Of a DNA stretch of 53,847 bases, positions 12,125 through 30,626 are shown piece after piece (the stretch's first letter is position 1; each line of letters opens with the position of its first letter). The notes under the pieces were generated by a model, which saw only the letters and a program-made list of their open reading frames with translations, searched no databases and was not told where the DNA came from. This DNA is from Hyphomicrobiales bacterium (GTDB lineage: Bacteria; Pseudomonadota; Alphaproteobacteria; Rhizobiales; Beijerinckiaceae). Where the stretch lies: NCBI GenBank assembly GCA_025356415.1, contig JANXTB010000066.1, forward strand, positions 1 to 53,847, in the 5' to 3' direction. The position numbers and the translations under genes were made by a program.

Positions 12125-12139
12125 TGGCACACGACTTGC
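12125..12139 (+). promoter_or_regulatory. Sigma54 (RpoN) -24/-12 promoter for the amidohydrolase pair
   Basis: TGGCACACGACTTGC matches the RpoN consensus TGGCACG-N4-TTGC at every fixed base but one (A for G at position 7). The GG and GC doublets have the required spacing. Transcription would start near 12151, giving a leader of about 22 bases before the ATG at 12173. It lies in a true intergenic gap just after a terminator. Confidence 0.75.
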
Positions 12140-12172
12140 CTGATGTTTTGTTGAAAAACACGAGGCCAATTC

Positions 12173-13744
12173 ATGCATGCTCCCGCGCTCCTCATCCGCA
12201 ACACCACCTACGTCGCCGGCGCGGGCACACCGCATCAATCGGGCGTCGACATCTTCATCGCGGATGGGTTGATTGCCGCCATCGGTGAGAACCTGATGGA
12301 CACACCCGTCGTCGCAGCCGCCAACCCGCGCGTGATAGACGGCTCCAAGCGGCTCGCCCTGCCCGGCTTCATCAACGCGCATACGCATTCGAACGAGAGT
12401 TTCGCGCAGGGCTTCTGGGATGCCATGCCGCTCGAAGTCTGGCTGCTGCACATCTATCCGCCCTTCACGATGAAGCGCATGCCCGAGCGCTTTCACTATC
12501 TGCGCACCATGCTGCTCGCCGTTGAGAGCGTGCGGTCCGGCGTCACCACCGTGCAGGATGATCTCATCAACAAGATGGGTGATGTCGAAGCGTTTGACGG
12601 GCCCGCCGCGGCCTATCGCGACATCGGCCTGCGCGCAGCCATCACCACGTCGATGGGCGACCGCCAGTTGCTCGAACCCATCCCGTGGACTGATGAAATC
12701 ATGTCGTCGGGCATGAAAGCCGAACTCGCCACGCTCCCCTTCAGGAAAGCAGCCGAACTCATCCAGACCTTCCATCGCCATTCGGAAAAGTGGAACGGCG
12801 CCGGCGATGGCCGCATTCGCGTCATTCTCGGCCCCATCGGCCCGCAATGGTGCACGGACGAATTGCTGCAGGAGGCGACGCAGATCTCGCTGGCGCGCGG
12901 GTTGCCCGTCCACACGCATACGCTCGAATCCAAACTGCAGGCCGTACAGGCGCAATATCTTTACGGTTGTACGATGATCGAACATCTCGATCGCATCGGC
13001 GTGCTGACGCCGAACTTCACTTTGAATCATGCGATCTGGCTCACCGATTCCGACATTGAACTCATCGGCGCGCGCGGCTGCTCCATGTCGCACAATCCGC
13101 TCTCCAATCTGAAACTCGGCTCCGGCATCGCACGCATCCGCGCAATGAAAAATGCCGGCGTCAATGTCGCGCTCGGCACTGATGGCACATCGACGTCCGA
13201 TCGCGCCGACATGTATCGCTCGCTCGGCATGGCCTCGCTGCTGCAACGCGCCGGCGACATGGATTACGAGACCTGGGTCACGGCGGATGAGGCTTTCGAA
13301 ATGGCGACGATGGGCTCGGCGCGCTCCTGCGGTCTCGGTAAGGAAATCGGCCGGATCGAAGTCGGACGCAAGGCCGACATCCAGCTCATCGACAAGCAGG
13401 ATTACGGCCTCATCCCGTTCTACAATCCGATTTCGCAACTGGCCTATGCGGTCAATTCCGATGCGGTGCGCAGCGTCATCGTCAATGGCGTCTTGATCAT
13501 GGACGAACGCCGTCTGACGCAGATCGACGAAGACGCGATCAAGGACGAGATGATCGAAGTCGCGGAAGCCTATGTACGCGACAACATGCCCGAGAAGGAA
13601 AAGATGGCGGCGAAATACCTGCCCTTCTATCGCGCCCTGCATATGCGCGCCGCACGCACCGACATCCCCGCCTCGCATGCCCCCGTGCGGCTATCCTGCG
13701 GCTGCATGCCGGCGCCCTTGCGCCACACCTTGACCTGCGACTAG
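12173..13744 (+). CDS. Metal-dependent amidohydrolase, AtzA/TrzN (chlorohydrolase/deaminase) type
   Basis: A 523-residue cytoplasmic enzyme of the amidohydrolase superfamily, subtype III. The metal and catalytic set is complete: His70/His72 (NAHTHSNE), HTHTLE at 247-252 including Glu252, His286 (LNHAIW) and Asp337 (LGTDGT). Relatives deaminate or dechlorinate N-heterocycles (s-triazines, adenosine derivatives, guanine). The substrate is not defined by sequence. The last 30 residues form an unusual tail rich in Cys and Pro after the usual C-terminal end. It is the first gene behind a sigma54-type promoter and is followed after 31 bases by an 8-oxoguanine deaminase gene, so it probably works on a heterocycle in the same nitrogen-scavenging programme. 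Confidence 0.85.
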   Translation: MHAPALLIRNTTYVAGAGTPHQSGVDIFIADGLIAAIGENLMDTPVVAAANPRVIDGSKRLALPGFINAHTHSNESFAQGFWDAMPLEVWLLHIYPPFTMKRMPERFHYLRTMLLAVESVRSGVTTVQDDLINKMGDVEAFDGPAAAYRDIGLRAAITTSMGDRQLLEPIPWTDEIMSSGMKAELATLPFRKAAELIQTFHRHSEKWNGAGDGRIRVILGPIGPQWCTDELLQEATQISLARGLPVHTHTLESKLQAVQAQYLYGCTMIEHLDRIGVLTPNFTLNHAIWLTDSDIELIGARGCSMSHNPLSNLKLGSGIARIRAMKNAGVNVALGTDGTSTSDRADMYRSLGMASLLQRAGDMDYETWVTADEAFEMATMGSARSCGLGKEIGRIEVGRKADIQLIDKQDYGLIPFYNPISQLAYAVNSDAVRSVIVNGVLIMDERRLTQIDEDAIKDEMIEVAEAYVRDNMPEKEKMAAKYLPFYRALHMRAARTDIPASHAPVRLSCGCMPAPLRHTLTCD

Positions 13745-13775
13745 ACAGGACACGCGAATTATTCGGGAATTTAAC

Positions 13776-15116
13776 ATGCGCATCTGGATCAAGAACCCGC
13801 TCGCCATTCTCGCCGACAATGCGGGTGGCGGGCTCGTTGTCGAGAACGGCAAGATTGTCGAACTCATCGCCAGCGGCAGCGCGCCGTCCCGCGCAGTGGA
13901 TTCGACCTTTGACGCCTCGCGCCATGTCATCACGCCGGGCCTCGTCAACACGCATCACCACATGTTCCAGACGCTGACGCGCGCGCATCCAGCCGCGATC
14001 AACAAGGAGCTGTTCCCCTGGTTGATGGCGCTGTTCCCGATCTGGGCGCGCAGCGTGAACCCCGAAAATTTTCGGCTGGCGACTCGGCTTGCGCTGACGG
14101 AACTTCTGATGTCGGGCTGCACCACCGTGTCTGATCACCAGTATTTTTTTACGCCCGGGCTTGAGAACGCGATGGACATTCAGGCGGAGGAAGCAGCCAA
14201 GCTCGGCATCCGCATGACGCTGACGCGCGGCTCGCTCGACATGACGCAGGCGATGGGCGGCAATGCGCCCGATGGCGGCGTACAGGACAAGGATGTCATC
14301 CTCGCTGATTGCGAACGAGTTATCGGCCGCTATCACGATCTCTCCGACGGCGCGATGATGCAGGTGGCGCTGGCGCCCTGCGCGCCGTTCAACGTCACCA
14401 AGCAATTGATGATCGAGACCGCGCAGCTTGCGGAGAAACACAATTGCCGCCTGCATACGCATCTCGCAGAAACACGCGACGAGATCGACTATTGCAACGA
14501 ACGCTTCCAGTGCCGCCCCGTCGATTATCTCGAAGACGCAGGCTGGATGAGCGATCGCGTCTGGCTCGCGCATGGCATTCACTTCAACGACGATGAAGTG
14601 AAACGCCTGGGACGTGCTGGCGTCGGCGTCTGCCATTGTCCGACGTCGAACATGGTGCTCGCGTCAGGCCAATGCCGCACGCGCGAGTTGGAAAAGGCGG
14701 GATCTCCGGTCGGGTTGGGCGTCGATGGCTCGGCGTCGAATGACAATTCCAATCTCATCGAAGGCGTGCGCCATGCGCTGATGATGAACCGCCTCACCTA
14801 TGATGCGACCATCACGCATTTCGACGCTTTCCGCTGGGCGACAGAGGGATCAGCAAAGTGCCTCGGGCGCAGCGACATTGGCGCCATCGCAGTGGGCAAG
14901 CAGGCGGACCTTGCCTGCTACACGCTCGAAGAATTGCGCTTCTCGGGCGCCGGCGATCCGCTGGCCGCGCTCGTGCTCTGCGGCGCGCACAGCGCCGACC
15001 GCGTGATGGTGAAGGGCGAATGGCGCGTCATCGACGCCATGCCAGTCGGCATCGACATAGCGCGCCTGCGCCGCGAACACGGCGACGCGGCCAAGGCGTT
15101 CCTGCAGGCGTTTTAG
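13776..15116 (+). CDS. 8-oxoguanine deaminase
   Basis: A 446-residue amidohydrolase. The segment NTHHHMFQTLTRAHPAAIN followed by KELFPWL is the signature of 8-oxoguanine deaminases, which convert 8-oxoguanine to urate and ammonia; isocytosine and guanine analogues are side substrates in the family. Catalytic features are intact: His60/His62, HTHLAE at 227-232, His266 and Asp317. A structural difference from guanine deaminase is the long insert after the first HxH. It is cotranscribed with the preceding amidohydrolase and converges on the oxygenase/hydrolase operon, which carries a purine-type importer. The product urate needs urate-degrading enzymes that are not in this window. Confidence 0.85.
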   Translation: MRIWIKNPLAILADNAGGGLVVENGKIVELIASGSAPSRAVDSTFDASRHVITPGLVNTHHHMFQTLTRAHPAAINKELFPWLMALFPIWARSVNPENFRLATRLALTELLMSGCTTVSDHQYFFTPGLENAMDIQAEEAAKLGIRMTLTRGSLDMTQAMGGNAPDGGVQDKDVILADCERVIGRYHDLSDGAMMQVALAPCAPFNVTKQLMIETAQLAEKHNCRLHTHLAETRDEIDYCNERFQCRPVDYLEDAGWMSDRVWLAHGIHFNDDEVKRLGRAGVGVCHCPTSNMVLASGQCRTRELEKAGSPVGLGVDGSASNDNSNLIEGVRHALMMNRLTYDATITHFDAFRWATEGSAKCLGRSDIGAIAVGKQADLACYTLEELRFSGAGDPLAALVLCGAHSADRVMVKGEWRVIDAMPVGIDIARLRREHGDAAKAFLQAF

Positions 15117-15118
15117 CC

Positions 15119-15158: not shown

Positions 15159-15180
15159 GGGCGCCTGCAGCACTCACGAG

Positions 15181-16128
15181 CTATTTCTTCTCGTAAGCGC
15201 CATAGGTCTCGGCGAAGCGCTGCGCCAGGTAAGCGCTCGCCGAGATCGGCGCATAGCATTTCGGATTGTCCGGCGTGACGCAGCTGTCGATGACATCGAC
15301 AATCGCATCCGGATTGGGATCGAGGAAGAAAGCGATCGAATAACGATCACCGCCTTCCGGCGTCACAACGCGATGCGGCGTCGAGGCATAGACGCCATTC
15401 GTCCAACGCATCAGGCAATCGCCGATATTGCAGATGAACGCGCCTTTCACCGGCGGCGCATCGATCCATCCGCCGCCCCGCCGGCGCACCTGCAAGCCGC
15501 CGATCTCGTCCACCGCCAGCAAGGTGAGATTGCCGTAATCGGTATGCGCGCCGGCGCCAAACTGATCGCTGCGCGGACCCGCCGGATAATGCAGCAGGCG
15601 CACCGTCGCCATCGGCTTGTCGAACACCGGCTCGAAATAATCGTCGTCGAGGCCAAGGTCGACCGCGACGGCGCGGTGAATGTCGCAGCCGAGCCTGTGC
15701 ATGCGGTCGAAATATTCGAGCATGGCGGGACGGAAACCCTCAAGGCGCGGCCACATGTTGAGCGCGCGCGAGGGTGCGCCCGCCAGAAGCTCCGGATCAT
15801 CGGCCTCAAGCTGAAGGCCGATGTTCATCGCTTCCTTGTTGTCGATGTTCTGTCCGGGATCGAGCGCCTCGGTCTTCATATGCACATAGCCGCGATTGCA
15901 GCTTGTCTTCGTGATCGCCAGCGGCGCTTTCTCTTCGAGCGGCAGCGCGAAGAACTTTCGCGACCAGGCGAAAGTGTCAGCCATGTCGGCGTCGGTAAAT
16001 CCGTGGTTCACGATGTAGAAAAATCCCGGGCCGCGCGACGCAGCGCCAATGTCACGCGCGATCTCGGCCAACCGCGCGCCGCTGGCGCCCTTGATGCCGG
16101 CGACATCGATGATCGGGAGTTCGTTCAC
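15181..16128 (-). CDS. 2-oxoglutarate/Fe(II)-dependent oxygenase, isopenicillin N synthase-like (copy 1)
   Basis: A 315-residue enzyme with the N-terminal DIOX_N domain (LPIIDVAGI and GFFYIVNHG) and the C-terminal jelly-roll. Iron ligands are His195, Asp197 and His252; the 2-oxoglutarate carboxylate is bound by Arg262-x-Ser264 (RYSIAFF). It should be an active dioxygenase that hydroxylates or demethylates a small molecule; fungal thymine 7-hydroxylase is a family member that acts on a nucleobase. It is the last gene of the minus-strand operon and overlaps the preceding hydrolase gene by 4 bases (ATGA). The substrate is unknown; context suggests a purine, pyrimidine or other N-heterocycle. Confidence 0.85.
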
Positions 16129-16790
16129 TTGCAGGCGTCCTTCAAAGTCCCAAGATCCGTCGCCCAGCCGACAATGCCGCCCTGTGCAATAACCATCGAC
16201 ACCACAGCGGCCTTGTACTCAGGAAAATAACTTTCGGTGCAATCCGTCACGAGCAGGCATTCAAACCCGCGATCGTTGGCCTCGCGCATCGACGTCTGCA
16301 CGCAGACTTCCGTCGTGACGCCTGCGAACACGAGATGCGTAATGCCGCGCGCGCGCAGCATGGCCTCGCAGTCCGTGTTGCAGAACATGCCTTTCCCCGG
16401 CTTGTCGATGACCATCTCGCCATCGATCGGCGCGCATTCGGGAATGATCGACGCGCCCGGCTCGCCACGCACCAGCAAGCGCCCCATCGGCCCGTCATCG
16501 CCGATGCGCAACCCGCCTCTGCCGCGCAGCCGCTTGGCGGGCGGACAGTCGGAGAGATCGGGCAAATGGCATTCGCGCGTGTGCAGGATCGGCCAGGCGT
16601 TCACGCGAAACAGTGCGATAAGATCGGCGACGGCGGGGATGATCGCCTGAAGCAGCGTGACATCATTGCCGAGCGCCGCGCCAAAGCCGCCGTGCTCGAC
16701 GAAGTCACGCTGCATGTCGATGACGACTAGCGCCGTGCGCTCCGGATCGAGCGCGAAGGAATAGGGCTGCGCGGGAACCTCAATCATCAA
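16125..16790 (-). CDS. Isochorismatase-like cysteine hydrolase, paralogue of biuret hydrolase
   Basis: A 221-residue amidase of the isochorismatase-like fold. The Asp-Lys-Cys triad is present: Asp25 (VVIDMQRDF), Lys130 (VIDKPGKG) and Cys163 (VTTEVCVQT). It shares with the biuret hydrolase gene of the same operon the patterns RGEPG, IDKPGKG, FCxTD and [14 protein letters not shown], so the two are paralogues. It lacks the [14 protein letters not shown] form ([14 protein letters not shown] here), which points to another substrate. Triuret, ureidoacrylate or N-carbamoyl compounds are known substrates in this superfamily; triuret hydrolase is a reasonable guess because its product leads to biuret. 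It overlaps the ATPase gene upstream and the oxygenase gene downstream by 4 bases each. Confidence 0.8.
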
Positions 16791-18307
16791 TCATGCCCCG
16801 CCATATGCATGCCGATGGTCGCGCGATCCGTCTCGCCGATCGGCGCGACATACGAGATTGTCCCCTCCGACATGACCGCGACGCGATCCGCCAATTCGAG
16901 AATTTCATCGAGATCTTCGGAGATCAGCAACACGGCGGCGCCGCGATTGCGCTGCTCCATAATCTGCGAGCGGATCTCGGCGACCGATGCGAAGTCGAGC
17001 CCGAAGCACGGGTTGGCGACGATCAGGACATCGACATCACCCGACAATTCGCGCGCCAGAACCGCGCGCTGCACATTGCCGCCCGAGAGATCGCCTATGG
17101 CGGAATCGGGCGATTGTGTTTTCACGCGATACGTCTCGATCAACTCGCGCGCCTTGGCGCGCATCGGACCGGGCGAGAGCCACCAGCCCCATTTGGCGTT
17201 CGGCGGACGATCGAACGAGCGAAACGCCATATTCTCGGAGACGCTCATGCGCGGCACTGTCGCGTTTTTCAGCGGCTCTTCAGGAAGCCCGAAAATCTTC
17301 AGGCGATAAAAAGAATCGCGCGTCGGCTCAAAAGGCTGGTCGCGCACGAAGATGCGGCCCTCATGAACCGGGCGCTGGCCAGACAGCACTTCCATCAATT
17401 GCGACTGGCCGTTGCCCGACACGCCGGCGACGCCGACGATCTCGCCGGACTTCACTTTCAGATTGACCCGATCGAGCACATTCTTGTCTGCCTCGTCGTG
17501 CGAGCTCAGGCCCGCCACTTCGAGCACGGCCGCGCCGGGCGCTTTTTCGATGCGGGTTGCGCGCGTGGTGATTTGCGTATCGCCGATCATCATGCGGGCC
17601 ATGGCGTCGGTCGAGAGTTCGGACACCTTGCCGCCGCCCACACGCTGCCCGCGCCGCAGCACGGTGAGCGAATCCGCAAAGGCTGTGACCTCGCGAAATT
17701 TATGCGTGATCATGACGACCGAGATTTCCTTGCGGTCGGTCATGCCGCGCAGCAGGCCCAGAATCTCGTCAGCCTCCTGCGGTGTGAGCACGGAGGTCGG
17801 CTCATCGAGAATGAGCAGGCGCTGGTCGAGATAGAGCAGCTTGAGGATTTCGAGCTTCTGCTTTTCGCCCGCCGCCAGTTGCGACACGGGAATGTTGAGC
17901 GGCGCGCGGAACGGCATGCGCTCGAGGAACGCCTCCAGCGCCTTCGTTTCCTTCGCCCAATCGATGATCGCCGGCGCATCGGCACGGCTGATGACGAGAT
18001 TCTCCGCGCCGGTGAGGCACGGCACGAGCGTGAAATGCTGGTAGACCATGCCAAGCCCAAGAGCGCGCGCGTCGCGCGGATTGCGCACGTTGACTTCCTG
18101 CCCGTTGAGCAGCAGCGAGCCCTTGTCGGCCTGATAGAAACCCATGATGCATTTGACGAGCGTCGATTTGCCGGCGCCGTTTTCGCCAAGAAGCGCGTGG
18201 AACGAGCCGGCTTCCACCTTGAGCGACACATCGCCGAGCGCGACGAGCGGCCCGAAGATCTTCGTCATGCCGATAGTTTCGAGCGAGAGCGCCTGCGGCT
18301 GGGTCAT
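16787..18307 (-). CDS. ABC transporter ATP-binding protein, nucleoside/BMP-type (two ABC domains)
   Basis: A 506-residue tandem ATPase. The first domain has Walker [10 protein letters not shown], a signature-like [13 protein letters not shown] and Walker [12 protein letters not shown]. The second has a degenerate Walker A ([10 protein letters not shown]), a good [15 protein letters not shown] and a degenerate Walker B ([11 protein letters not shown]). This asymmetric layout is that of the importers that work with BMP-family binding proteins and take up purine nucleosides or bases. It would power the two permeases at 20009-22050. It is separated from them by the formamidase and biuret hydrolase genes, which places the hydrolases within the transporter operon. 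Confidence 0.9.
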
Positions 18308-18317
18308 GACTCGTTCC

Positions 18318-18995
18318 TTACGGCAGATGATCGAGAAAAGTCGACGATGTCGCGACGGCGCCGAAAACGCCGCCCTGCATTTTCACCATGTTCAGCGCGG
18401 CAAGATGATTGCCATGATCGGTCGCTCCGCAGCAATCTTCCAGCAGCAAACATTCGAAGCCGCGATCATTGGCCTCGCGCATCGTGGTGTGCACGCAGAC
18501 ATCGGTGGTGATGCCGGCCAGCACGATGTTGCGAATGCCGCGCGTGTGCAGCATCAGTTCGAGATCGGTGGCGCAGAACGAGCCCTTGCCGGGCTTGTCG
18601 ATGATCGGCTCGCCGGGAAGCGGCGCCAACTCCTCGATAATGTCCCAGCCGGGTTCGCCGCGCACGAGAATGCGCCCGCAGGGGCCGGCATCGCCAATGC
18701 CTGCACCGATCTGTTGCGAGCGCCAGCGCTTGTTCGCAGGGAGATCCGAGAGGTCGGGCCGGTGCCCCTCGCGCGTGTGGATGATGTGATAACGCCTGTC
18801 GCGCAGCGCTTTCAGCACGCGCTTGATCGGCTCAATCGGCGCGCGCGTGAGCGAAATGTCGTAGCCCATCTTGTCGACGTAGCCGCCGACACCGCAGAAA
18901 TCCGTCTGCATGTCGATGATGATGAACGCCGTGTTCTCGGCAGTAAGCTTTCCGTCGAAGGGCCAGGCGTAGGGATCGGAGGGAATGGTCGCCAT
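18318..18995 (-). CDS. biuH: Biuret amidohydrolase (isochorismatase-like)
   Basis: A 225-residue hydrolase with triad Asp28 ([10 protein letters not shown]), Lys134 (IIDKPGKG) and Cys167 ([10 protein letters not shown]). From memory, the spacing of these residues (28/134/167) is the same as in Rhizobium leguminosarum biuret hydrolase (36/142/175). The stretches [27 protein letters not shown] and [14 protein letters not shown] look like that enzyme rather than other isochorismatase relatives. It converts biuret to allophanate and ammonia in the cytoplasm. Allophanate hydrolase and cyanuric acid hydrolase, the usual partners, are not in the window. It starts 3 bases after the formamidase stop. 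No alignment could be run. Confidence 0.75.
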
Positions 18996-18998
18996 GTC

Positions 18999-20000
18999 TC
19001 AGGCCTTCTCGCCGAAGCTGCGCGTCGGCGCCGGAAAGCCGCAGGATGTTCCATCCGTGTGGATGATCTCGTTCTCCCACGGCAGTCTGTATTCGCCCGC
19101 GACCAGATCTTTCATGTAAGTATAAGGACAATCCTGCGCGCCGCCTTTTACAGCCGTGTAGCCGCGATGGCCGAACTGGTAGATGTTGTTTTCAACCGAC
19201 CAATGTTTTCGCGCCTCACGCACGAGATCGGGCCGCACTTCGGCGGTGATGATTTCATCCGCGCGGCCTGTTTGTCCGTGTGCGATGATCGTGCCGTCGA
19301 AGTTGACAATCATGCCCTCGCCCATGGAATCGAACGAGCCATCCGTGCCGCACATGCAAACGTTGGCGGTTACCATGAGATTGCAGAATGCGTTCGACTG
19401 GTTGGTGAAGCGCCATGATTGACGGATCGGCGGGGTGTAGCCCGCCGTGCGTATCATGATTTCCGCGCCCTTGTAGGCGCATTCGCGCGCCATTTCCGGG
19501 AACATGCCGTCATGGCAGATGATCAGCGCGAGCTTGCAGCCGTTAGGCCCGTCGATCACCGGAATGCCTTGATCGCCGGGCTCCCATGGCTCGACCGGAA
19601 CCCACGGATGCATCTTGCGATAGTAGAGTTTGATGTCGCCGTGATCGTCGATCACGAGGCCGGAATTATACGGCATGCCGTGCGGGTTGAACTCCATGAT
19701 GGAGAAGCAGCCCCAGATCTTGTTGTCGATGCACGCCTGCTTGAAGGCGCGCACTTCGGGCCCATCGACCGAGCACATGATCTCGGGATTGATGTCCATC
19801 GAGAGGCCATGCAGCGCGTATTCCGGGAAGACGACGATATCCATGGTGGCGAGATTACGCCGCGCCTTGCCGACGAGCTCGACAATGCGGCGCGTTTGCG
19901 ACGCGAGTTGCGCGGGCGTTTCAACCACCGGCAATTGCAATTGCACGAGGCCGATGACGACGCCGTTCGGACTCTTGTTCAAGCCGCCAAGACCGCTCAT
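18999..20000 (-). CDS. Formamidase (nitrilase superfamily, AmiF type)
   Basis: A 333-residue enzyme with the nitrilase-type Glu-Lys-Cys triad: Glu60 (VVFPEYALHG), Lys129 (YYRKMHPW) and Cys162 (ALIICHDGMFPE). The segments PWEPGDQGIPV, NQSNAFCNLM, WSVENNIYQFGHRGY and the C-terminal KDLVAGEYRLPWE match the AmiF/AmiE aliphatic amidase group. Length and the MSGLGGLN start resemble AmiF formamidase, which yields formate and ammonia from formamide. A short-chain aliphatic amidase role remains possible. AGAGG precedes the ATG at 20000. It lies between the permeases and the biuret hydrolase, so transport and amide hydrolysis are coexpressed. Confidence 0.8.
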   Translation of the reverse strand: MSGLGGLNKSPNGVVIGLVQLQLPVVETPAQLASQTRRIVELVGKARRNLATMDIVVFPEYALHGLSMDINPEIMCSVDGPEVRAFKQACIDNKIWGCFSIMEFNPHGMPYNSGLVIDDHGDIKLYYRKMHPWVPVEPWEPGDQGIPVIDGPNGCKLALIICHDGMFPEMARECAYKGAEIMIRTAGYTPPIRQSWRFTNQSNAFCNLMVTANVCMCGTDGSFDSMGEGMIVNFDGTIIAHGQTGRADEIITAEVRPDLVREARKHWSVENNIYQFGHRGYTAVKGGAQDCPYTYMKDLVAGEYRLPWENEIIHTDGTSCGFPAPTRSFGEKA

Positions 20001-20008
20001 TCCAACCT

Positions 20009-23345: not shown

Positions 23346-23980
23346 CGCGTAAACCTCCAAACGTTCCGTCGTGTCGCCCCCCGGCGCACCCGGACCCTTG
23401 ACAAGAAAAGCAAGGAGCGTGCCGCAGCTTGACCGGCCAAGCGGAGCTTTAGCGCTGAAATAACAGCCGGAGTTTGAACGGGGCGCCCACGCAAGAGGCG
23501 AGGCGCCGTATCGGAATCCAGAAAGGCCTTTAAGGGCGCTATTTTCCATGGCGGGTTTTCGACCTGATCCGCAGGGACGCGCGGGCCCTTGCGGCAATTC
23601 AGGCGGAAGACGTTTCCTTCCGGGTCTTCGAGCACGGCCTGCCGCGCATTATAATAAGTGTCGTAGGGATCTTTCACGATGCGCCCGCCAGCCGCGATGC
23701 AGGCCTGCGCCAGCGCGCCTACCTCATCGGGGCTCTCCACCTCGAACGTGAGATAGACCTGCACGGCGCCACGGCCCTTCGGGCGACGCTCAGAGATCTG
23801 CAGGAGATCGTAGGCCTGATCGGCATTGAAGCCGAGCTCCATGCCGCGCGCATCGAGGCAGCGGTAGATGGGCGAGCGATGCGTTTCGATCTCGCTGAAA
23901 CCCAGCAGCCGCGCGTAGAAGCCCGACAGCTTTTCGATGTCGCGCGCAAGGATGTTCACATAGGCCAGACGCGCGCTCAT
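23342..23980 (-). CDS. VOC (glyoxalase-like) protein with an odd basic C-terminal tail
   Basis: Residues 1-130 form one VOC module (LAYVNILARDIEKLSGFYARLLGF to VLEDPEGNVFRLNCR). The conserved strand and helix pattern is clear, though only part of the metal set is obvious. The remaining 80 residues (from about WKIAPLKAFL on) are rich in Arg, Leu and Ala, do not resemble VOC sequence, and are encoded by DNA that also holds the sigma54-type promoter and ribosome site of the next gene. The natural stop may have been lost by a small indel, or the extension may be genuine. The start overlaps the upstream oxygenase stop (ATGA) and the stop overlaps the binding-protein ATG. Confidence 0.7.
   Translation of the reverse strand: MSARLAYVNILARDIEKLSGFYARLLGFSEIETHRSPIYRCLDARGMELGFNADQAYDLLQISERRPKGRGAVQVYLTFEVESPDEVGALAQACIAAGGRIVKDPYDTYYNARQAVLEDPEGNVFRLNCRKGPRVPADQVENPPWKIAPLKAFLDSDTAPRLLRGRPVQTPAVISALKLRLAGQAAARSLLFLSRVRVRRGATRRNVWRFTR
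23410..23424 (-). promoter_or_regulatory. Sigma54 (RpoN) -24/-12 promoter for the BMP transporter/hydrolase operon
   Basis: On the minus strand the sequence is CGGCACGCTCCTTGC, which differs from TGGCACG-N4-TTGC only at the first base. Transcription would start near 23398, about 53 bases before the ATG at 23345. It lies inside the 3' extension of the VOC reading frame. Confidence 0.6.
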
Positions 23981-24972
23981 GCGGAAGCTTGCGCTGGCGC
24001 GTAGCCATAAGAGCGGCGAAACATTTCCGCCATGTGGTCTGCCGCCGTGCAGGGTGGATATTTCGGCGGGCTCTCGCCCGTGACGCAGCTCGGGATTGCG
24101 ACGACCTTCGCGTTTGGGCTTGGCGACATGAAGAACGGGATGGAATAACGCGTGCCGCCGCTGCGGTTGTTCTTCACGCGATGCATGTTCGAGGAATAGA
24201 CATCATTGGTCCAGCGCGCCATCAGGTCGCCGAGATTGACAATATAGGCGCCGGGAATGGGCGGCGCGACGATCCACTCGCCTGCGAGATTGCGCACTTC
24301 GAGGCCACCCGAGAAATCCTGCGCCAGCAGCGTGATGCCGCCCCAATCAGTATGCGCGCCGGCGCCGATCTGGTTTTCGTCGGCGTTTTCGGGATGCGGC
24401 GGATATTTGATAAGCCGCAGGGTCGCGGACGGCGGATCGAAATATGGCGCGAAGAATTGTGCGTCCAGCTCAAGCGAGCGCGCGATGTGCTCCAGCACGC
24501 GATCGCCGAGCATGATCATCGCGGCGTAATAGGCATTGAGCGTCTGGCGCATGGCGGGCTGCGTGGCGGGCCATTGATTGTGCCCGTAGCCGCGCATTTT
24601 CTTGATGGCGAGTGGGTGATCGTCGGGCAGTTCGAGCCCGCAGTAGAAGGCTTCCTTCAGGTCTGGCGGCGCGGCGGGCGCATTGGCGTCCTGGCTGTCG
24701 AGCTTCTGCGCGCCCATCTGTTCGTAGCCGGAATTCGCCGGCGAATTCTTCATGTCGAGCGCGGCCTTCTGCGCGAGCGGCAGGTCGAAGAAATCCTTCG
24801 AGACGCGAAACGCCGCGTCGATGAGCGCGGGATCGACGCCGTGGTTCTTCACGGTGAAGAAGCCGATGGTGCGGCAGGCGATGTGGATCTCGCGCGCGAT
24901 GTGTTCGTCGGTCGCCGCGAGGTCGATGACAGGAACGCTGCGGGCGGGCGATGGCGGCGTGTAGAGGATCAT
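23977..24972 (-). CDS. 2-oxoglutarate/Fe(II)-dependent oxygenase, isopenicillin N synthase-like (copy 2)
   Basis: A 331-residue enzyme with an N-terminal DIOX_N domain (VPVIDLAA and IGFFTVKNHGVD) and the C-terminal catalytic domain. Iron ligands are His207, Asp209 (GAHTDWGG) and His264; 2-oxoglutarate is bound by Arg275-x-Ser277. It is the first gene of the long minus-strand run 24972 to 15181, with GGAG 9 bases before the ATG. It is clearly divergent from copies 1 and 3 outside the motifs, so the three are not recent duplicates and probably act on different intermediates. The substrate is unknown. Confidence 0.85.
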   Translation of the reverse strand: MILYTPPSPARSVPVIDLAATDEHIAREIHIACRTIGFFTVKNHGVDPALIDAAFRVSKDFFDLPLAQKAALDMKNSPANSGYEQMGAQKLDSQDANAPAAPPDLKEAFYCGLELPDDHPLAIKKMRGYGHNQWPATQPAMRQTLNAYYAAMIMLGDRVLEHIARSLELDAQFFAPYFDPPSATLRLIKYPPHPENADENQIGAGAHTDWGGITLLAQDFSGGLEVRNLAGEWIVAPPIPGAYIVNLGDLMARWTNDVYSSNMHRVKNNRSGGTRYSIPFFMSPSPNAKVVAIPSCVTGESPPKYPPCTAADHMAEMFRRSYGYAPAQASA

Positions 24973-24989
24973 CTCAAAGAACTCCAGGT

Positions 24990-25028
24990 CGTCATTGCGA
25001 GGAGCGAAGCGACGCGGCAATCCATCTT
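24990..25028. repeat. REP-like element, half copy
   Basis: The left arm only, CGTCATTGCGAGGAGCGAAG to GCAATCCATCTT, just upstream of oxygenase copy 2. Confidence 0.85.
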
Positions 25029-25072
25029 CGTCGCCGCGGTGATTGAGGCCTCACGAACCCCGCCCCTAGCCC

Positions 25073-25158
25073 CTCCCCACAAGGGGGAGGGGAACACCAT
25101 GCGACGCTCGCAAGCTTTTTGCTCATGCTGGGCGTCTTCCCCTCCCCCTTGTGGGGAG
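25073..25158. repeat. GC-rich inverted repeat (second repeat family)
   Basis: A perfect 22-base inverted repeat: CTCCCCACAAGGGGGAGGGG at the left arm (25073-25094) and its reverse complement at 25137-25158, 42 bases apart. It is followed by a small CTCGCCGAAGGCGAG hairpin. It fills most of the gap between oxygenase copies 3 and 2, so these two genes may be separate transcription units. Confidence 0.85.
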
Positions 25159-25242
25159 GGCGACTCGCCGAAGGCGAGCGGGGTGGGGGTCGTGTGATGT
25201 TGAACCATTACGTGCGCGGCTGCGCTCGCAATGACAAGGCCT

Positions 25243-26259
25243 CTACTTCTTCTCCAGCTTCGCAAAGTTCGCCGCGATGCGTTGCAGCAGATAATCCATC
25301 GCGGTGATCGGCTCATATTTCTTTTTTGGTCCCTGCACGATCGCGTCGCGGTTGGCCTGGGCGAAGAAGGCGATGGAATAGCGCGGGCCCTGGTACTCGT
25401 CGGGCTTGGGCATGCGCACGCGGTGCAGCGTCGACTGCAGTTCGTCATCGCTCCAGCGCATCAGCATGTCGCCGATGTTGCAGGTGATGGCGCCCGCCGT
25501 CGGGGGAACCGGAGTCCATTCCTGCGACGAAGATTCCTTGCCGGGGCAAACTTGCAGACCGCCCTGCCCCGCGCGCTGATGCAGCAACGTCAGGCAATCG
25601 TAATCGGTATGCGCGCCGGCGCGCCACAGGTCGAAGTCCGCGGGCTTGGCGTCTTCCATCGGCAAGTAATGCAACAGCCGCAGCGTGCTTTGATATTCCG
25701 GCGACGTGGGATCGTGACGCTCGGTGAAGAACGCGTCGTCGAAGCCCATCTTCAGCGCGAAGCAGGACAACACCTGCATGGCGACCGCCCAGTTCTTGCT
25801 TTCGAACTCTCCCATGAGGCGCACGAAATCCGCGCATTCCTCTTCTGTGGGATAAAGGCCCGCCATGCGCGGCTTGGTGATCTGGTAGCTTTCCTTGCGG
25901 TCTGCCGTTCCCGTCGAGGGACGCACCTGCGCCATGAATTCCCAACCGGAATTCGTGCCCTTGAGCATAGGGTACTTGGCCTTGATCTCGTTGGGCATGG
26001 CGAAAAATTTCGCGGCCATTTCGAAAGCCGCGTCGACCTCCGCCTGCGGAATGCCGTGGTTGATCAGCTGGAAGAAACCGGAATCGGTGGAAGCTTCCCA
26101 GAGCTGGTCGGCGATCTCCTGCTTGCGCGCAGCGAAATTCGTGAGGTCGATCTGCTTGATCGTGCGCACGACTTCATGCCCTGCGCCCCCGAACGTGGTT
26201 TCTTTCTTCAGCTCCGCCAGTGCGAAATCGTCGGCGGTCCTCGTCTGTGTCGTATTCAT
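25243..26259 (-). CDS. 2-oxoglutarate/Fe(II)-dependent oxygenase, isopenicillin N synthase-like (copy 3)
   Basis: A 338-residue enzyme. After about 30 extra N-terminal residues the DIOX_N domain starts (IKQIDLTNF, SGFFQLINHGIP). Iron ligands are His217, Asp219 (GAHTDYDC) and His279, and Arg293-x-Ser295 binds 2-oxoglutarate. GGAG lies 6 bases before the ATG at 26259. It is flanked by palindromic repeats on both sides, and no other gene shares its transcript with certainty. It probably belongs to the same catabolic programme because it lies between the two transporter operons. The substrate is unknown. Confidence 0.85.
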   Translation of the reverse strand: MNTTQTRTADDFALAELKKETTFGGAGHEVVRTIKQIDLTNFAARKQEIADQLWEASTDSGFFQLINHGIPQAEVDAAFEMAAKFFAMPNEIKAKYPMLKGTNSGWEFMAQVRPSTGTADRKESYQITKPRMAGLYPTEEECADFVRLMGEFESKNWAVAMQVLSCFALKMGFDDAFFTERHDPTSPEYQSTLRLLHYLPMEDAKPADFDLWRAGAHTDYDCLTLLHQRAGQGGLQVCPGKESSSQEWTPVPPTAGAITCNIGDMLMRWSDDELQSTLHRVRMPKPDEYQGPRYSIAFFAQANRDAIVQGPKKKYEPITAMDYLLQRIAANFAKLEKK

Positions 26260-26290
26260 GTTGGTCTCCGTTTCAGGGTCAAACGTGTTT

Positions 26291-26373
26291 CGTCATTGCG
26301 AGCGAAGCGAAGCAATCCATCTAAATGTCTGCCGAAGATGGATTGCCGCGTCGCTGCGCTCCTCGCAATGACG
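26291..26373. repeat. REP-like element, full copy
   Basis: It runs from CGTCATTGCGAGCGAAGCG to GCTCCTCGCAATGACG, palindromic overall, upstream of oxygenase copy 3. The left arm is a shorter variant. Confidence 0.9.
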
Positions 26374-26483
26374 GTGCATGATTTGAAAGGAGCAATGACC
26401 GACGCGCGCGGCGTTGACTGCTTCTACTCCTGATGCATGGTCGCCTTCTTGGGCGGGCCGCCCTGTTTTGCCCTGCTCTCTCC

Positions 26484-27857
26484 TTAAGCCGATGCAATGC
26501 GCGCGATGCGCGCTGTCACGCGCGCGGCGTCGGCCGCGAGCTGTTCCATGTCGAGCCACGGCAGCTTGCCGTCCCGCACGATCTCGCGGCCCTTCACGAA
26601 GGAATGACGCACGTTCGCGTCGCCCGCCGAAATGATGGGCCCCACCAGCGGATCGAGCTGGCCGAGATAACGCGGCGCGCTGAGATCGTAGAGAACGATG
26701 TCAGCCGACTTGCCGACTTCAATCGTGCCCACCGTGTCGAGCCCGAGAATTTTGGCGCCGCCCGCCGTCGCCCATTCGAGCGCGGTTTCGGGCTTTAGCG
26801 CACCGACGCCCTTCGAGGCGCGATGCACGGAGATAGCCGTGTACAGCGCCGAGATCATGTCGGCGGCTTCATTGGCCGCCGCGCCATCGACCGCGAGCGA
26901 AACATTGCCGCCGAGTTTTGAGAGCATGTCGGCGGGCGCAATGCCCGAGCCCAGCCGCGCATTGGCCTGGGGGCAATGCGCCATGCCGGCGCCTGTTTCG
27001 TACAAGACGCGCACTTCGCTCTCGTCGCAGGTGACGAGATGCGCGAACCAGACGTCTGGCCCGAGCCATTCATATTGCGAGATCCAGTGGATCGGCCGCA
27101 TGCCGTATTTCGACATGGTGTAATCGTCGTAATCGGTCGATTCCGACAGATGCGAATGCAGCCGCAGGCCCAGCGCGCGCGACGCACGAGCCAGATCGCG
27201 CAACTCTTCGGGCTCGAGCGAGAAGGTCGGCGTCGTCGGCGCAACCACAACGCGGCGCATCGAGTCTGCTGACGGATCATGAAAGCGCTTCGCCGTCGCC
27301 GTCACCGAGTCGATCATCTCGTCGAGAGTCTCGGTCGGCAGCGGGATCGTGTTGTCCTCGTCGAAGTTGCGGCCCTTGGTGGCGCCGCCGCGGCAGAGCG
27401 CGAAACGCACGCCGAATTTGTCCGCCGTGTCGAACAGCACTTCCGCCGGATCGAAATCATAGGATTTCGAAAAGATGTAATGATGATCGGCGATGGTGGT
27501 GGCGCCCGACAGCGCGAGTTCCGCCATGCCGATGGTCGCCGACACGCGCAGCGCCTCTTCGTCGAGCTTGTCCCAATAGGTATAGGGCACGAGCCGCAAC
27601 CACTTTGCGAGACTCTCGTTGAGTCCCGCGGGCACGGCTTTCAGCACGCTCTGGAACAAATGATGATGCGTGTTGACGAGGCCCGGCGTGACGACGCAGC
27701 CCTTGGCGTCGACGATCTTTTCACCCGACAGCGGCGTCAATGCGCCGATCTCGGTGATCATGCCATTCACGACACGAACATCGCCCTGCGCGCGCGCGGC
27801 ATCGCCTTTGCGGCCCGTCAGAATGCCCTTGGCGCCCGTGATGAGGAAGCTCGTCAT
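26484..27857 (-). CDS. Amidohydrolase, 8-oxoguanine deaminase/AtzA-like
   Basis: A 457-residue enzyme of amidohydrolase subtype III. Metal and catalytic residues are complete: His64/His66 (NTHHHLFQ), HSHLSE at 234-239, His273 (FAHLV) and Asp324 (AVDGAA). It resembles the 8-oxoguanine deaminase at 13776 in the first metal loop and in the long insert after it, but the RAHPAAIN stretch of true 8-oxoguanine deaminases is replaced (KAVPAGLNESL), so a different ring compound (for example an oxidised pterin, isoguanine or hydroxypyrimidine) is likely. Its ATG overlaps the stop of the permease gene, tying it to the NMT1/THI5-type importer, whose cargo it probably deaminates. Confidence 0.82.
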   Translation of the reverse strand: MTSFLITGAKGILTGRKGDAARAQGDVRVVNGMITEIGALTPLSGEKIVDAKGCVVTPGLVNTHHHLFQSVLKAVPAGLNESLAKWLRLVPYTYWDKLDEEALRVSATIGMAELALSGATTIADHHYIFSKSYDFDPAEVLFDTADKFGVRFALCRGGATKGRNFDEDNTIPLPTETLDEMIDSVTATAKRFHDPSADSMRRVVVAPTTPTFSLEPEELRDLARASRALGLRLHSHLSESTDYDDYTMSKYGMRPIHWISQYEWLGPDVWFAHLVTCDESEVRVLYETGAGMAHCPQANARLGSGIAPADMLSKLGGNVSLAVDGAAANEAADMISALYTAISVHRASKGVGALKPETALEWATAGGAKILGLDTVGTIEVGKSADIVLYDLSAPRYLGQLDPLVGPIISAGDANVRHSFVKGREIVRDGKLPWLDMEQLAADAARVTARIARIASA

Positions 27858-28687
27858 TTCGGCAGGCTCCAGGGAAAGAAGATTTTTTGCGTCAAAGCGA
27901 CAAGTTGGAACAGCCCGAGGGACATGACCATGAGGATGCCAAGACCAGCCCAGGCTTCCGGCAATTTGAAGAGCGATGTCGAGAACTGGATGTAATAACC
28001 AATGCCCTTTTCCGCCGCGACGAATTCAGCGACGACCGCGCCGATGACCGAGAGAGTGATGGAAATTTTCAGCGCGGAGAAAATGTAGGGGATCGCATAG
28101 GGAATGCGGATCTGCGTGAATTCGCGATGAATCGGCGCGCGAAGCGAGCGTGAAAGCTCGACGAGTTCGGGCGGCGTCGCCATCAGGCCCGTTGTCGTAG
28201 ATACGACCAGCGGGAAAAAGGCGATGAGGCACGTGATCACGACACGCGGCGCGTCTTCGGCGCCGAGCACGACGATGATGATCGGCGCGATGGCGACGAC
28301 CGGCGTCGACTGGATGACGACCAGCAGCGGATAAAGACAGGCCGACAGGGTTTCGGATTTCGTCAGGCCGATGGCGATGGGCAGCGCGATGGCGATGGAA
28401 ATTGCATAGCCCATCAGCGCGACGCGCAACGTCGCCCACACATGCTCCACCCAGCGGCCGAAGGGGATCGAGTCGAAACCACCGGCGATGCGGCTCGGCG
28501 CCGGCAGCACGTAGGAGGGAATGTGGAACACGCGCGTCGCCAGCTCCCACACCACGAGGATGGCGAGGAAAGTCAAGGCAGGCAGAAGCACGAGCCGGAG
28601 ACGTCCGGCCGGCAAACGCGCCATCAATGCGCGCATCTTAGGCCGCGCGCTTGAGAAGGAGGCTGCGAAGCTGTCCAGAGAAGTCAT
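27854..28687 (-). CDS. ABC transporter permease, SsuC/TauC-type
   Basis: A 277-residue membrane protein with about six spans and the binding-protein-dependent transport domain. The EAA-like loop reads ELSRSLRAPIHREFTQIRIPYAIPYIFSALKIS (in pieces: ELSRSLRAP, REFTQIRIPYAIPYIF). The family serves sulfonate, pyrimidine and thiamine-precursor uptake. Two starts are possible: 28687, with AAGG 6 bases upstream and a 50-base overlap with the ATPase gene, or 28636, one base after the ATPase stop. I used the longer form because it has the better ribosome site. The gene partners the ATPase at 28638 and binding protein at 29416. Confidence 0.88.
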   Translation of the reverse strand: MTSLDSFAASFSSARPKMRALMARLPAGRLRLVLLPALTFLAILVVWELATRVFHIPSYVLPAPSRIAGGFDSIPFGRWVEHVWATLRVALMGYAISIAIALPIAIGLTKSETLSACLYPLLVVIQSTPVVAIAPIIIVVLGAEDAPRVVITCLIAFFPLVVSTTTGLMATPPELVELSRSLRAPIHREFTQIRIPYAIPYIFSALKISITLSVIGAVVAEFVAAEKGIGYYIQFSTSLFKLPEAWAGLGILMVMSLGLFQLVALTQKIFFPWSLPK

Positions 28688-29414
28688 GCATCACCTTGGA
28701 GCTTGTCGTTTCAATGCTGCGCGGGCGTTCGATCGGCACCTGCAAATCGCAGAGCACCGAGCCGGGGCGCCCGGTCATCACCAGCACACGGTCGGCGAGC
28801 AGAACGGCCTCGTTGATCGAATGCGTAATGAACAGCACGGTTTTCGGAGACGCCTGCCAAATGCGCAGAAGTTCGAAGCCCATCTCCTCGCGCGTCAATG
28901 CGTCGAGCGCCGAGAAAGGCTCGTCCATCAGCAATATGTCGGGATTGAGCAGCAGCGCGCGGGCGATGCCAACGCGTTGCTGCATGCCGCCCGACAATTC
29001 AGCCGGCATGCGTTTTTCAAAACCCTCGAGGCCAACCATCTTGAGCATTTCGCGCGCGGACGCGCGATGCTCGTGGTTCACCTTTCCGGTCTTGTGCTTG
29101 ATCGGGAAGACGACATTGTCCTCGACATTCGCCCAGGGCAGCAGCGTCGGTTTTTGAAACACAATGCCGATATCGTCACGCGGTTCGGTGACGGGGAGGC
29201 CGAATACATCGACGCTCCCCGAGGTCGGCGCCAGTAGCCCCGCGATGCAGCGCAGCAATGTGGATTTGCCGCAGCCCGAAGGCCCCAGCACCGCCACGAA
29301 CTCGTGCCGCTTCACCGCGAAATTCACATCGCGCAAGGCTTCGACGGACCCCGAGTCAGTTTTGAAAATCTGCCCGAGTCCCTTGAAGGCGATCGCGTCT
29401 GGCGCCTCTCTCAT
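28638..29414 (-). CDS. ABC transporter ATP-binding protein, SsuB/TauB-type
   Basis: A 258-residue ATPase with Walker A GPSGCGKST, signature LSGGMQQRVGIARALL, Walker B ILLMDEPFSALD and the switch His in FITHSINEA. It powers the importer formed by the neighbouring permease and NMT1-like binding protein. The ATG follows the binding-protein stop with a single base between, so the two are cotranslated. Confidence 0.92.
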   Translation of the reverse strand: MREAPDAIAFKGLGQIFKTDSGSVEALRDVNFAVKRHEFVAVLGPSGCGKSTLLRCIAGLLAPTSGSVDVFGLPVTEPRDDIGIVFQKPTLLPWANVEDNVVFPIKHKTGKVNHEHRASAREMLKMVGLEGFEKRMPAELSGGMQQRVGIARALLLNPDILLMDEPFSALDALTREEMGFELLRIWQASPKTVLFITHSINEAVLLADRVLVMTGRPGSVLCDLQVPIERPRSIETTSSKVMHDFSGQLRSLLLKRAA

Positions 29415-29415
29415 G

Positions 29416-30420
29416 TTACTTCACCGGCACGAAGCGGCGATCCACAACGCTCTCAGGGTCCAGCGAGGCCGGATCGAGCTTCAGGGACTGCGCGGTCCGC
29501 TTCCACGATTCAGCCAGACGGCCCTTTTCGAACACGCCCAGACCATCCTTGGCGGTGACCTCGTTGACCGCGAGCAACATGGCGTCGTTGATCGAACCCT
29601 CGACGTCTTCCGCCTTCAGTTCCGGCACGACCGAGCGCACGGCCTCGACCGAATCCTTGCGGTTGGCGTTGGTGTATTCGATCGACTTCTTGAACGCGCC
29701 GATGAAGCGCTTGGCGACATCGGGACGCTCCTTCAGGAATTTTTCCGACGCGACGAGCGTCGCCGAATACATGTCGAGACCGGCGGCTTCCCACGGCAGG
29801 ACGATGATGTCCTTGCCCGCGGCCTTCGCCTGGTTGGTGTAGCGGGTGACGTCGGTCATCCACGCGATGATGACGTCGCTGTTGCCGGTCATCAGCATGG
29901 GGCCGAGCGCGCCGGGATCGGCCTTTGTCAGCTTGATGTCTTCTTCGGTCAGGCCGATATCGCTGAGCATCAGCGGCAGGAAGACGTTGGACGAGGTGAA
30001 CGGCGACGTCGCGACGCGCTTGCCTTTCACATCCTTGATGGCCGTCATGCCGTTGCCCTTCAGCGTGAAGAAGGCATGCGGACCCTTGTTGAAGATCGAC
30101 ATGACGGCGACGACCGGCACTTTCTCCTTGGCGCGCGCGGCGAGCAGCGCCTCGATGCCGGCGGAGCCGATGTCGGACGAGCCGGTGGCGATGCGGGTGA
30201 TCGCCTCCGTCGAGCCGCGACCCGACGCGATGGAGACGTCAAGCCCGGCGTCCTTGCAGAAGCCCTTGGCGACGCAGACGTAAATCGGCGCCTTGTCGCC
30301 GCCGGGCAACCAATCGAGCTGGTAAATCACCTTGTCGGCGGCGAGTGCGGGCGCGCTTGCCGCAAGAAGCGCAATGGCCGCGCCGCGCAGGGAACGAAGA
30401 AAAGACGATGAATTTGTCAT
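29416..30420 (-). CDS. ABC transporter substrate-binding protein, NMT1/THI5-like
   Basis: A 334-residue periplasmic protein. From the ATG at 30420 (AGGAG 10 bases upstream) it has a signal peptide (hydrophobic 11-24, cleavage after APALA). The mature start VIYQLDWLPGGDKAPIYVCVAKGFCKD is typical of NMT1/THI5-type binding proteins, which carry pyrimidine-like compounds (thiamine pyrimidine precursors, uracil degradation substrates), riboflavin or sulfonates. It is the first gene of the operon binding protein-ATPase-permease-amidohydrolase and lies behind a sigma54-type promoter. The ligand is likely an N-heterocycle, given the cotranscribed deaminase. Confidence 0.88.
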   Translation of the reverse strand: MTNSSSFLRSLRGAAIALLAASAPALAADKVIYQLDWLPGGDKAPIYVCVAKGFCKDAGLDVSIASGRGSTEAITRIATGSSDIGSAGIEALLAARAKEKVPVVAVMSIFNKGPHAFFTLKGNGMTAIKDVKGKRVATSPFTSSNVFLPLMLSDIGLTEEDIKLTKADPGALGPMLMTGNSDVIIAWMTDVTRYTNQAKAAGKDIIVLPWEAAGLDMYSATLVASEKFLKERPDVAKRFIGAFKKSIEYTNANRKDSVEAVRSVVPELKAEDVEGSINDAMLLAVNEVTAKDGLGVFEKGRLAESWKRTAQSLKLDPASLDPESVVDRRFVPVK

Positions 30421-30611
30421 GAATGGAACACTCCTCGGCGCATCGCATAGCGAAGCGACGACCGTGCGCAGAAGACGCACGGCCGTGTTGGGGCTGGACT
30501 TGGTCTGAAGGCGTGACGAAGCGGACACGAACACGCTCCCTTTAAGGACCGGTTGGGACGAGCAATGCCCCGGGCTGAACCCTGGCCGCTTCTACTCGCG
30601 TAATGTTGGAA

Positions 30612-30626
30612 GCAATGGGCGTGCCA
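30612..30626 (-). promoter_or_regulatory. Sigma54 (RpoN) -24/-12 promoter for the NMT1-type importer operon
   Basis: On the minus strand the sequence is TGGCACGCCCATTGC, an exact match to TGGCACG-N4-TTGC. Transcription would start near 30600 and leave a leader of about 180 bases before the ATG at 30420. It is in a non-coding gap and is not part of the neighbouring REP-like element. Confidence 0.75.

Follow-up and report, generated by a model that had tools for sequence, protein, structure and literature searches.

A candidate purine-scavenging island joining a xanthine-riboswitch module to a triuret module in a Hyphomicrobiales genome

What task could be shared by two importers, three oxygenases and a series of hydrolases packed into 18.5 kb of a single genome? 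The locus examined in the present study occupies positions 12,125 to 30,626 of a 53,847-nucleotide contig of a Hyphomicrobiales bacterium (JANXTB010000066.1, assembly GCA_025356415.1; contig C6, the whole of which is hereafter called the window), belonging to a 4.6 Mb genome of 429 contigs that is rated 93% complete. On balance, we favour the reading that it is a nitrogen-starvation purine-scavenging island of two modules acting as consecutive steps to ammonia. Module A is made up of a sigma54 site, a riboswitch, an NMT1-type importer, a guanine/8-oxoguanine-type deaminase, another riboswitch and the 2-oxoglutarate (2OG)-dependent Fe(II) oxygenase OX3, sometimes with a further oxygenase, OX2. 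Module B consists of a BMP-type importer, formamidase, biuret hydrolase (BiuH) and triuret hydrolase (TrtA), joined in some relatives, as here, by a third oxygenase, OX1.

Riboswitches, promoters and gene content

Module A carries two xanthine (NMT1) riboswitches of Rfam family RF03054, one ahead of the importer and one ahead of OX3, both exceeding the gathering score of the covariance model (Table 1). A preliminary description of the locus, prepared from its sequence and open reading frames (ORFs), had missed them, together with the identity of TrtA. Other members of this class bind xanthine and urate and act as OFF switches (Yu and Breaker 2020, PMC7373994). Among the best 80 of at least 433 confirmed OX3 relatives, taken from named genomes, 71 loci contained a riboswitch, which stood within 700 nt ahead of OX3 in 60; the importer ATPase was found in 56 and the PRK12393 deaminase (45% identity or more) in 41. 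The riboswitch counts in relatives come from a regular expression and are low estimates, since cmscan on seven loci confirmed all 11 of its matches and added two more. Tandem riboswitch cores, about 260 nt or less apart, precede OX3 in L155, L156, L159 and L212.

A predicted sigma54 -24/-12 promoter that matches the consensus TGGCACN5TTGCW exactly ends eight bases ahead of riboswitch 1, which puts the expected transcription start at the beginning of the aptamer, at about 30601 by the usual spacing of sigma54 promoters. Window-wide sigma54 matches with up to two mismatches were no more frequent than expected by chance (20 seen, 26 expected) and are uninformative, unlike the positional test in relatives. 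At the same stringency, 22 of 44 first riboswitches (NMT1-proximal, 19 of 40; deaminase-proximal, two of three; plus the window's own) were preceded by a site at 29-31 nt from their core, versus 30 of 2180 random positions, test and control both taking any position in a 45-nt range and the fixed spacing having been noticed afterwards. OX3-proximal riboswitches had such a site in two of 64 cases, at other distances. Of 79 triuret operons, 36 had a site with no more than one mismatch in the 450 bases ahead, versus 45 of 1580 random positions, in a set that leaves out L142, counts L135 and L215 of one genome separately and is unthinned for close relatives. The sigma54 control proposed in the preliminary description thus agrees with sites that match the consensus and are conserved in position or enriched in the relatives of both modules, and predicted nitrogen control of both modules is well supported, operons that start with OX1 or 8-oxoguanine deaminase being an exception. 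The two other zero-mismatch sites in the window, at 32036-32051 on the minus strand and 32053-32068 on the plus strand, face opposite ways, one base apart, inside a glutathione S-transferase-like ORF (31975-32757).

In module B, a protein previously noted as a second isochorismatase-like amidase is present and can be named more specifically, being by its sequence the triuret hydrolase TrtA. Twelve of 13 published positions are kept (D24, F29, F35, N41, E72, K129, K132, A134, E160, C162, Y187, Q202 and I205; PMC7948467), with Met at A134. The closest solved structures to BiuH are themselves BiuH.

Table 1 Features of the island, listed from the high to the low end of the window
Feature	Position	Strand	Evidence or remark
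sigma54 -24/-12 promoter (predicted), exact consensus	30611..30626	-	ends 8 bases ahead of riboswitch 1
xanthine (NMT1) riboswitch 1	30555..30602	-	RF03054, 47.0 bits, gathering 36; ahead of NMT1-type importer
NMT1/THI5-type substrate-binding protein	29416..30420 (frame open to 30534)	-	Pfam PF09084, 135.7 bits
ABC ATPase of NMT1-type importer	28638..29414	-	Pfam/NCBIfam searches
permease of NMT1-type importer	27854..28636 (frame open to 28687)	-	PF00528
amidohydrolase PRK12393, guanine/8-oxoguanine deaminase-like	26484..27857	-	NF009059, 635.3 bits, cut-off 543; nearest solved 2paj
xanthine (NMT1) riboswitch 2	26385..26434	-	RF03054, 45.6 bits, gathering 36; ahead of OX3
OX3, 2OG-Fe(II) oxygenase, riboswitch-linked clade	25243..26259	-	PF14226 + PF03171; clade 100/100
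OX2, 2OG-Fe(II) oxygenase	23977..24972 (frame open to 25020)	-	Pfam; 22-row clade, 15 riboswitch-linked
VOC (glyoxalase/dioxygenase) protein	23342..23980	-	PF00903
BMP/PnrA-type substrate-binding protein	22236..23345	-	PF02608
BMP importer permease 1	20926..22050	-	PF02653
BMP importer permease 2	20009..20929	-	PF02653
formamidase	18999..20000	-	PRK13287, 568.8 bits, cut-off 406
biuret hydrolase BiuH (predicted)	18318..18995	-	NF050097, 414.6, cut-off 370; PDB 6azo, 406 bits
BMP importer double-domain ATPase	16787..18307	-	PF00005, two stretches
triuret hydrolase TrtA (predicted)	16125..16790	-	PDB 6xix (TrtA), 299.4 bits; best BiuH chain, 217.6
OX1, 2OG-Fe(II) oxygenase, triuret-operon clade	15181..16128	-	Pfam; start overlaps TrtA stop by 4 bases
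8-oxoguanine deaminase (product urate)	13776..15116	+	PRK08203, 622.8, cut-off 532; nearest solved 3hpa
amidohydrolase without equivalog	12173..13744	+	Glu where guanine-deaminase type has Gln
possible sigma54 site, one mismatch	12125..12140	+	ahead of plus-strand amidohydrolase pair

Gene families were assigned by Pfam, NCBIfam and PDB searches of 40 window ORFs out of 196 listed, several gene starts being chosen from ORF ends and starts. The content given in the preliminary description was recovered: both importers complete, three oxygenases, three amidohydrolases, formamidase, biuret hydrolase, the second isochorismatase and a VOC protein. Fifteen minus-strand genes run in one direction from 30.6 kb down to 15.2 kb in the order NMT1-type importer (three genes), PRK12393 amidohydrolase, OX3, OX2, VOC, BMP-type substrate-binding protein, two permeases, formamidase, BiuH, importer ATPase, TrtA and OX1, and the opposite strand holds two amidohydrolases at 12.2-15.1 kb, one of which exceeds the curated cut-off for 8-oxoguanine deaminase, as had been called. 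The latter enzyme was reportedly the subject of a study by Hall et al. in 2010. The GC content of the island is about 62%.

Overlaps of four bases, earlier ascribed to most of the minus-strand genes, occur at six of the 14 junctions at most (permease/deaminase, OX2/VOC, VOC/BMP, the BMP permease pair, TrtA/OX1 and, if TrtA starts at TTG, ATPase/TrtA), and elsewhere in the run neighbouring genes are 224, about 270 and 185 bases apart. Between OX3 and OX2 lies an inverted repeat of 27 bp (25071-25160), whose arms are separated by 36 nt and could attenuate read-through. Dispersed repeats of 33-41 nt (95-98% identical, inverted or direct) are found in leaders around the island at 24989-25030, 26290-26373 and 30654-30737, one pair sitting between riboswitch 2 and OX3. 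Farther out, about 6 kb from the island, Phage_capsid, Peptidase_S78 and Phage_portal genes (2635-6276, minus strand) are perhaps a gene transfer agent or a prophage remnant. The flanks also hold an extradiol-dioxygenase-like protein (10181-11326, plus strand), below its cut-off, and a UbiD-type decarboxylase (35802-37421, minus strand), which suggests aromatic catabolism around the island.

Conservation of the modules and their oxygenases

A conserved neighbourhood in related genomes, which the preliminary description had set as a test, was found, though in a form other than the single gene set it proposed: the genes are conserved as two separate modules that have been brought together in a few lineages. 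OX3 is rare, occurring in three of 289 class genomes (E<=1e-40). TrtA-like genes were present in 38 of the 289 at the same threshold, which admits BiuH too; at E<=1e-75, TrtA was present in 74 of the 397 genomes of the order. The class rows listed only "same family" or "same class" kin, and the class sample therefore has little bearing on the order itself. Apart from the window's own genome, 73 genomes of the order carry TrtA, and we examined 53 stretches from them (ranks 1-40 and 61-73), using neighbourhood queries for formamidase and BMP that began a few residues inside the genes. The complete run of BMP, permeases, BiuH, ATPase and TrtA was found in 45 of these 53 loci and in 17 of the 38 class-wide TrtA/BiuH stretches. 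In 16 of the 53 order loci, from seven families, an OX1 relative stood no more than 1.0 kb from the triuret operon and on its strand, where a rough estimate from the density of OX1 in the class gives a chance expectation of about 0.03 loci. In the wider class, 20 stretches around OX1 relatives contained module A genes only in L112, itself picked for its riboswitches, and the triuret run (45% identity) in none.

Linkage of 8-oxoguanine deaminase (50% identity or more) to the triuret operon recurs in L213, L215, L222, L225, L249 and L272, and both modules are neighbours in three further genomes. In Zhengella mangrovi (L213/L214), 8-oxoguanine deaminase, OX1, BMP, permeases, formamidase, BiuH, ATPase and TrtA are divergent from riboswitch, NMT1-type importer, deaminase and OX3. 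In G350 (L249) the NMT1 side is visible up to the edge of the stretch. The third, a Beijerinckiaceae metagenome-assembled genome (MAG; L215), has OX3, 8-oxoguanine deaminase, another amidohydrolase, the BMP run, TrtA, an amidase, allophanate hydrolase and OX1 on a contig that begins at OX3, placing the importer side out of view. Elsewhere, 8-oxoguanine deaminase and OX1 lie ahead of the triuret operon in Ahrensia (L225), and OX1 is present in Stappia (L224). TrtA (E<=1e-75) was found in 21 of 50 OX3-bearing genomes, namely the first 47 OX3 loci by score plus L181, L208 and L212, which were picked for their neighbours. Within the order, as assigned by name and leaving out L161 (same genome as G040, "same class"), the figure was 16 of 33, compared with the 74 of 397 order-wide. 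At E<=1e-50, which possibly includes BiuH, TrtA-like genes were also matched on 264 of 72,556 plasmid records, including 77 from Escherichia and 13 from Klebsiella; by this sequence match, plasmids carry the triuret/biuret module well beyond the Alphaproteobacteria.

DIOX_N and 2OG-FeII_Oxy exceeded their cut-offs in OX1, OX2 and OX3, and all three oxygenases have the motifs HTD, HRV and RYS, of which we take the first two to be the HxD...H iron ligands and the last the R-x-S 2OG site. The 11 best Foldseek matches of OX3 are thymine-7-hydroxylase chains, and this enzyme is among the closest structural neighbours of OX1, a likeness that fits a nucleobase substrate without identifying it. In a tree from which we left out L213/L214 (which share their genome with L142), rows identical to others and about nine-tenths of the OX3 rows, the three oxygenases appear as three clades whose membership largely tracks the module. 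The OX1 clade (31 rows, support 97/98) takes in 20 of 22 triuret-linked rows; the OX2 clade (22 rows, 99/93) takes in 15 of 16 riboswitch-linked rows, and one riboswitch-linked row, L152, is placed with OX1. OX3, whose best relatives are from Beijerinckiaceae and other Hyphomicrobiales, stands apart (100/100). VOC adjoins OX2 also in L133, the sole such case among the best 80 OX3 loci. Scanning of L208 showed that OX3 is followed there by genes for another NMT1-type importer, an enzyme of the cytosine deaminase family, FAD and flavodoxin-type proteins, an OX1-type oxygenase (8 kb downstream of OX3, as also in L203, L210 and L212) and a creatininase. This set may belong to a different heterocycle pathway.

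Proposed function and alternatives

Under nitrogen limitation, module A would be transcribed from its sigma54 promoter into a transcript starting at the xanthine riboswitch, with the second riboswitch guarding OX3. Its products would import purines and deaminate and oxidise them to xanthine/urate, the build-up of which would shut off translation of the module. Module B, together with the 8-oxoguanine deaminase on the opposite strand, would degrade oxidised purines, or fragments of them, with triuret, biuret, allophanate and ammonia as products, and from the family names each hydrolase would be expected to release ammonia. Because OX3 has its own riboswitch in most loci, its product probably lies at or before xanthine/urate. 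In the triuret-linked copies (21 rows, one gene counted twice), no riboswitch was found on the OX1 strand within 3 kb ahead; lacking a riboswitch and standing beside TrtA and, in some copies, 8-oxoguanine deaminase, OX1 probably acts after xanthine/urate. By atom count, triuret is urate minus C5 and C6, and an OX1-initiated breakdown to triuret is therefore possible; formamidase would take up the resulting one-carbon fragment. We infer from these observations that the modules act consecutively, OX3 before OX1, and that OX1 helps to make triuret.

A more specific version, which we advance as rather doubtful, is that OX1 (with OX2/VOC) turns urate, by an O2- and 2OG-dependent reaction, into triuret or a formyl-biuret-like fragment, bypassing allantoin and leaving TrtA, BiuH and formamidase to finish. 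The urate would come from xanthine, or from 8-oxoguanine via the 8-oxoguanine deaminase. Modules that are usually apart are joined here, a hint that purines and triuret may be connected by an enzymatic step not yet described. The preliminary description had named oxidised or methylated N-heterocycles as substrates. The range narrows to oxidised purines: a purine-type substrate accords with the two xanthine riboswitches and the deaminases, and N-methylated xanthine and urate were not bound by the riboswitch of this class that has been tested (PMC7373994). Its final stage, hydrolysis of small amides, is in keeping with the families of TrtA, BiuH and formamidase, and the oxygenases may, as it supposed, attack the ring or its substituents. 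A thiamin-related role for the NMT1 gene was rejected, the riboswitch class and the neighbours being purine-related.

Several observations weigh against the proposed scheme. Most copies of each module stand alone: 37 of the 53 order loci are without OX1, neither an oxygenase match nor a riboswitch turned up in any of the 38 TrtA/BiuH stretches from the class, and within the stretches examined BMP, BiuH or TrtA genes were near OX3 only in L135 and L142 of the best 80 loci. The co-occurrence counts are uncorrected for phylogeny, with close relatives unthinned. Two of the 22 triuret-linked oxygenases fall inside the OX2 clade, and the window OX1 sits on a long branch, its nearest row 55% identical and its placement within the clade weak (80/55). 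Only two of 22 operons that start with OX1 or 8-oxoguanine deaminase have a sigma54 site, and, given the gaps in the minus-strand run and the inverted repeat between OX3 and OX2, the whole run may be more than a single transcript. An OFF riboswitch is strange for urate degradation and suits production of xanthine/urate better. Mesorhizobium xinjiangense (L152) has OX1 together with a guanine deaminase and an adenosine deaminase, and no TrtA match was found in its genome; the OX1 product therefore need not go to TrtA. The allophanate hydrolase AtzF of the triuret pathway was not found, the best match in the genome being 34% identical to the L215 AtzF with its AH_C domain; at 93% completeness, loss of the gene through assembly is possible. 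Finally, XDH, PuuD and URAD are encoded elsewhere in the genome, which can thus handle urate without the island, making the latter an extra route; the island as the only purine route was rejected on this ground. The cofactor-free uricase PF01014 was not found in a search of the genome.

The presence of XDH, PuuD and URAD, the lack of a close AtzF, L152, the mostly separate modules and the OFF switch together keep alive the alternative that two independent nitrogen-scavenging operons lie side by side, both answering nitrogen starvation but sharing no intermediate, module A salvaging purines and module B taking environmental triuret and biuret. The sigma54 sites that each module has of its own in relatives are in line with this, and triuret occurs as an impurity in fertiliser and also forms when urate is oxidised chemically (PMC7948467). 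However, a sizeable share of the order genomes have OX1 and 8-oxoguanine deaminase, which a pure scavenger of triuret and biuret would not need, within or next to the triuret operon, and OX1 overlaps TrtA by four bases in the window. We regard independence as possible but not the probable explanation.

It is unlikely that the oxygenases are N-demethylases of modified purines, such as methylated ones derived from tRNA, yielding xanthine and formaldehyde while the amidohydrolases remove substituted amines in the manner of N2,N2-dimethylguanine hydrolases. 2OG oxygenases commonly demethylate, and thymine-7-hydroxylase, which among characterised structures is nearest to OX3, acts on the methyl group of a nucleobase by oxidising it. 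The NdmH enzymes share a deaminase cluster with 8-oxoguanine deaminase, and their product xanthine is the riboswitch ligand (PMC13054789); their second-shell motif CQxxN, however, is absent from all three window amidohydrolases, an NdmH identity for which was rejected, and demethylation leaves TrtA, BiuH and OX1 in a triuret operon unexplained. The idea that the island degrades s-triazines or cyanuric acid and was acquired as an answer to herbicides was rejected as very improbable, even though BiuH was characterised from cyanuric acid catabolism (PMC5806882) and Atz/Trz enzymes belong to amidohydrolases of this type (PMC12828455), because no cyanuric acid hydrolase (AtzD/TrzD) was matched in the 40 scanned window ORFs, the rest of the genome not having been searched for it, no TRZ/ATZ or triazine model exceeded its cut-off among the best 25 NCBIfam models for each amidohydrolase, and the xanthine riboswitches would be unexplained; triazines, suggested earlier as a nitrogen source, are thus an unlikely substrate.

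Relation to known systems and significance

Returning to the purine-scavenging island, each of its parts is known and the combination is new. Module A resembles the xanthine riboswitch regulon of Yu and Breaker (PMC7373994), in which RF03054 precedes NMT1/THI5-type, isopenicillin-N-synthase-type (pcbC) and PRK12393 genes. It differs in having two copies per run, a sigma54 site at the aptamer start and triuret/biuret genes downstream. The main text of that study leaves RpoN, triuret and biuret unmentioned; genes for the degradation of oxidised purines were not observed with the riboswitch class, and functions of the associated dioxygenases were not established. Module B shares TrtA and BiuH with the triuret operon trtA-biuH-atzF (Tassoulas et al., PMC7948467) and the BMP-type importer with bmpA-nupABC of nitrifiers (PMC12625717). 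To the known triuret operon the island adds formamidase and OX1 in the run and, beside it, 8-oxoguanine deaminase and xanthine-riboswitch genes, whereas no atzF was found close by. The classical route through XDH, urate oxidase and allantoin also handles xanthine and urate, but none of its genes is among the island genes scanned. Thymine-7-hydroxylase (PDB 5c3p-5c3s), the fold compared above, is about 30-34% identical to the island oxygenases and comes from Neurospora, with a pyrimidine as substrate.

As far as the open-licence literature shows, the joining of the modules, OX1 in a triuret operon and the fixed sigma54-riboswitch spacing are new. Judged by titles and the starts of abstracts, nothing in that literature ties triuret and an oxygenase to bacterial purine catabolism. 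Only PMC7373994 was found there to connect isopenicillin N synthase with urate and xanthine in bacteria, and nothing was found that joins purine, 8-oxoguanine deaminase and a 2OG oxygenase in a gene cluster.

The study of the triuret operon (PMC7948467) suggests that triuret arises from urate mostly by non-enzymatic oxidation; its biological source is unsettled, although a very specific hydrolase for it exists. One locus thus holds both puzzles, the source of triuret and the riboswitch-linked dioxygenases, and each can be tested with a small set of purified enzymes. If transcription from sigma54 does start at the first base of the riboswitch, control would have two inputs, nitrogen shortage switching the genes on and abundant oxidised purine switching them off. 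If the proposed OX1 route is true, triuret would be a regular intermediate of bacterial purine catabolism, beyond a chemical by-product or fertiliser impurity.

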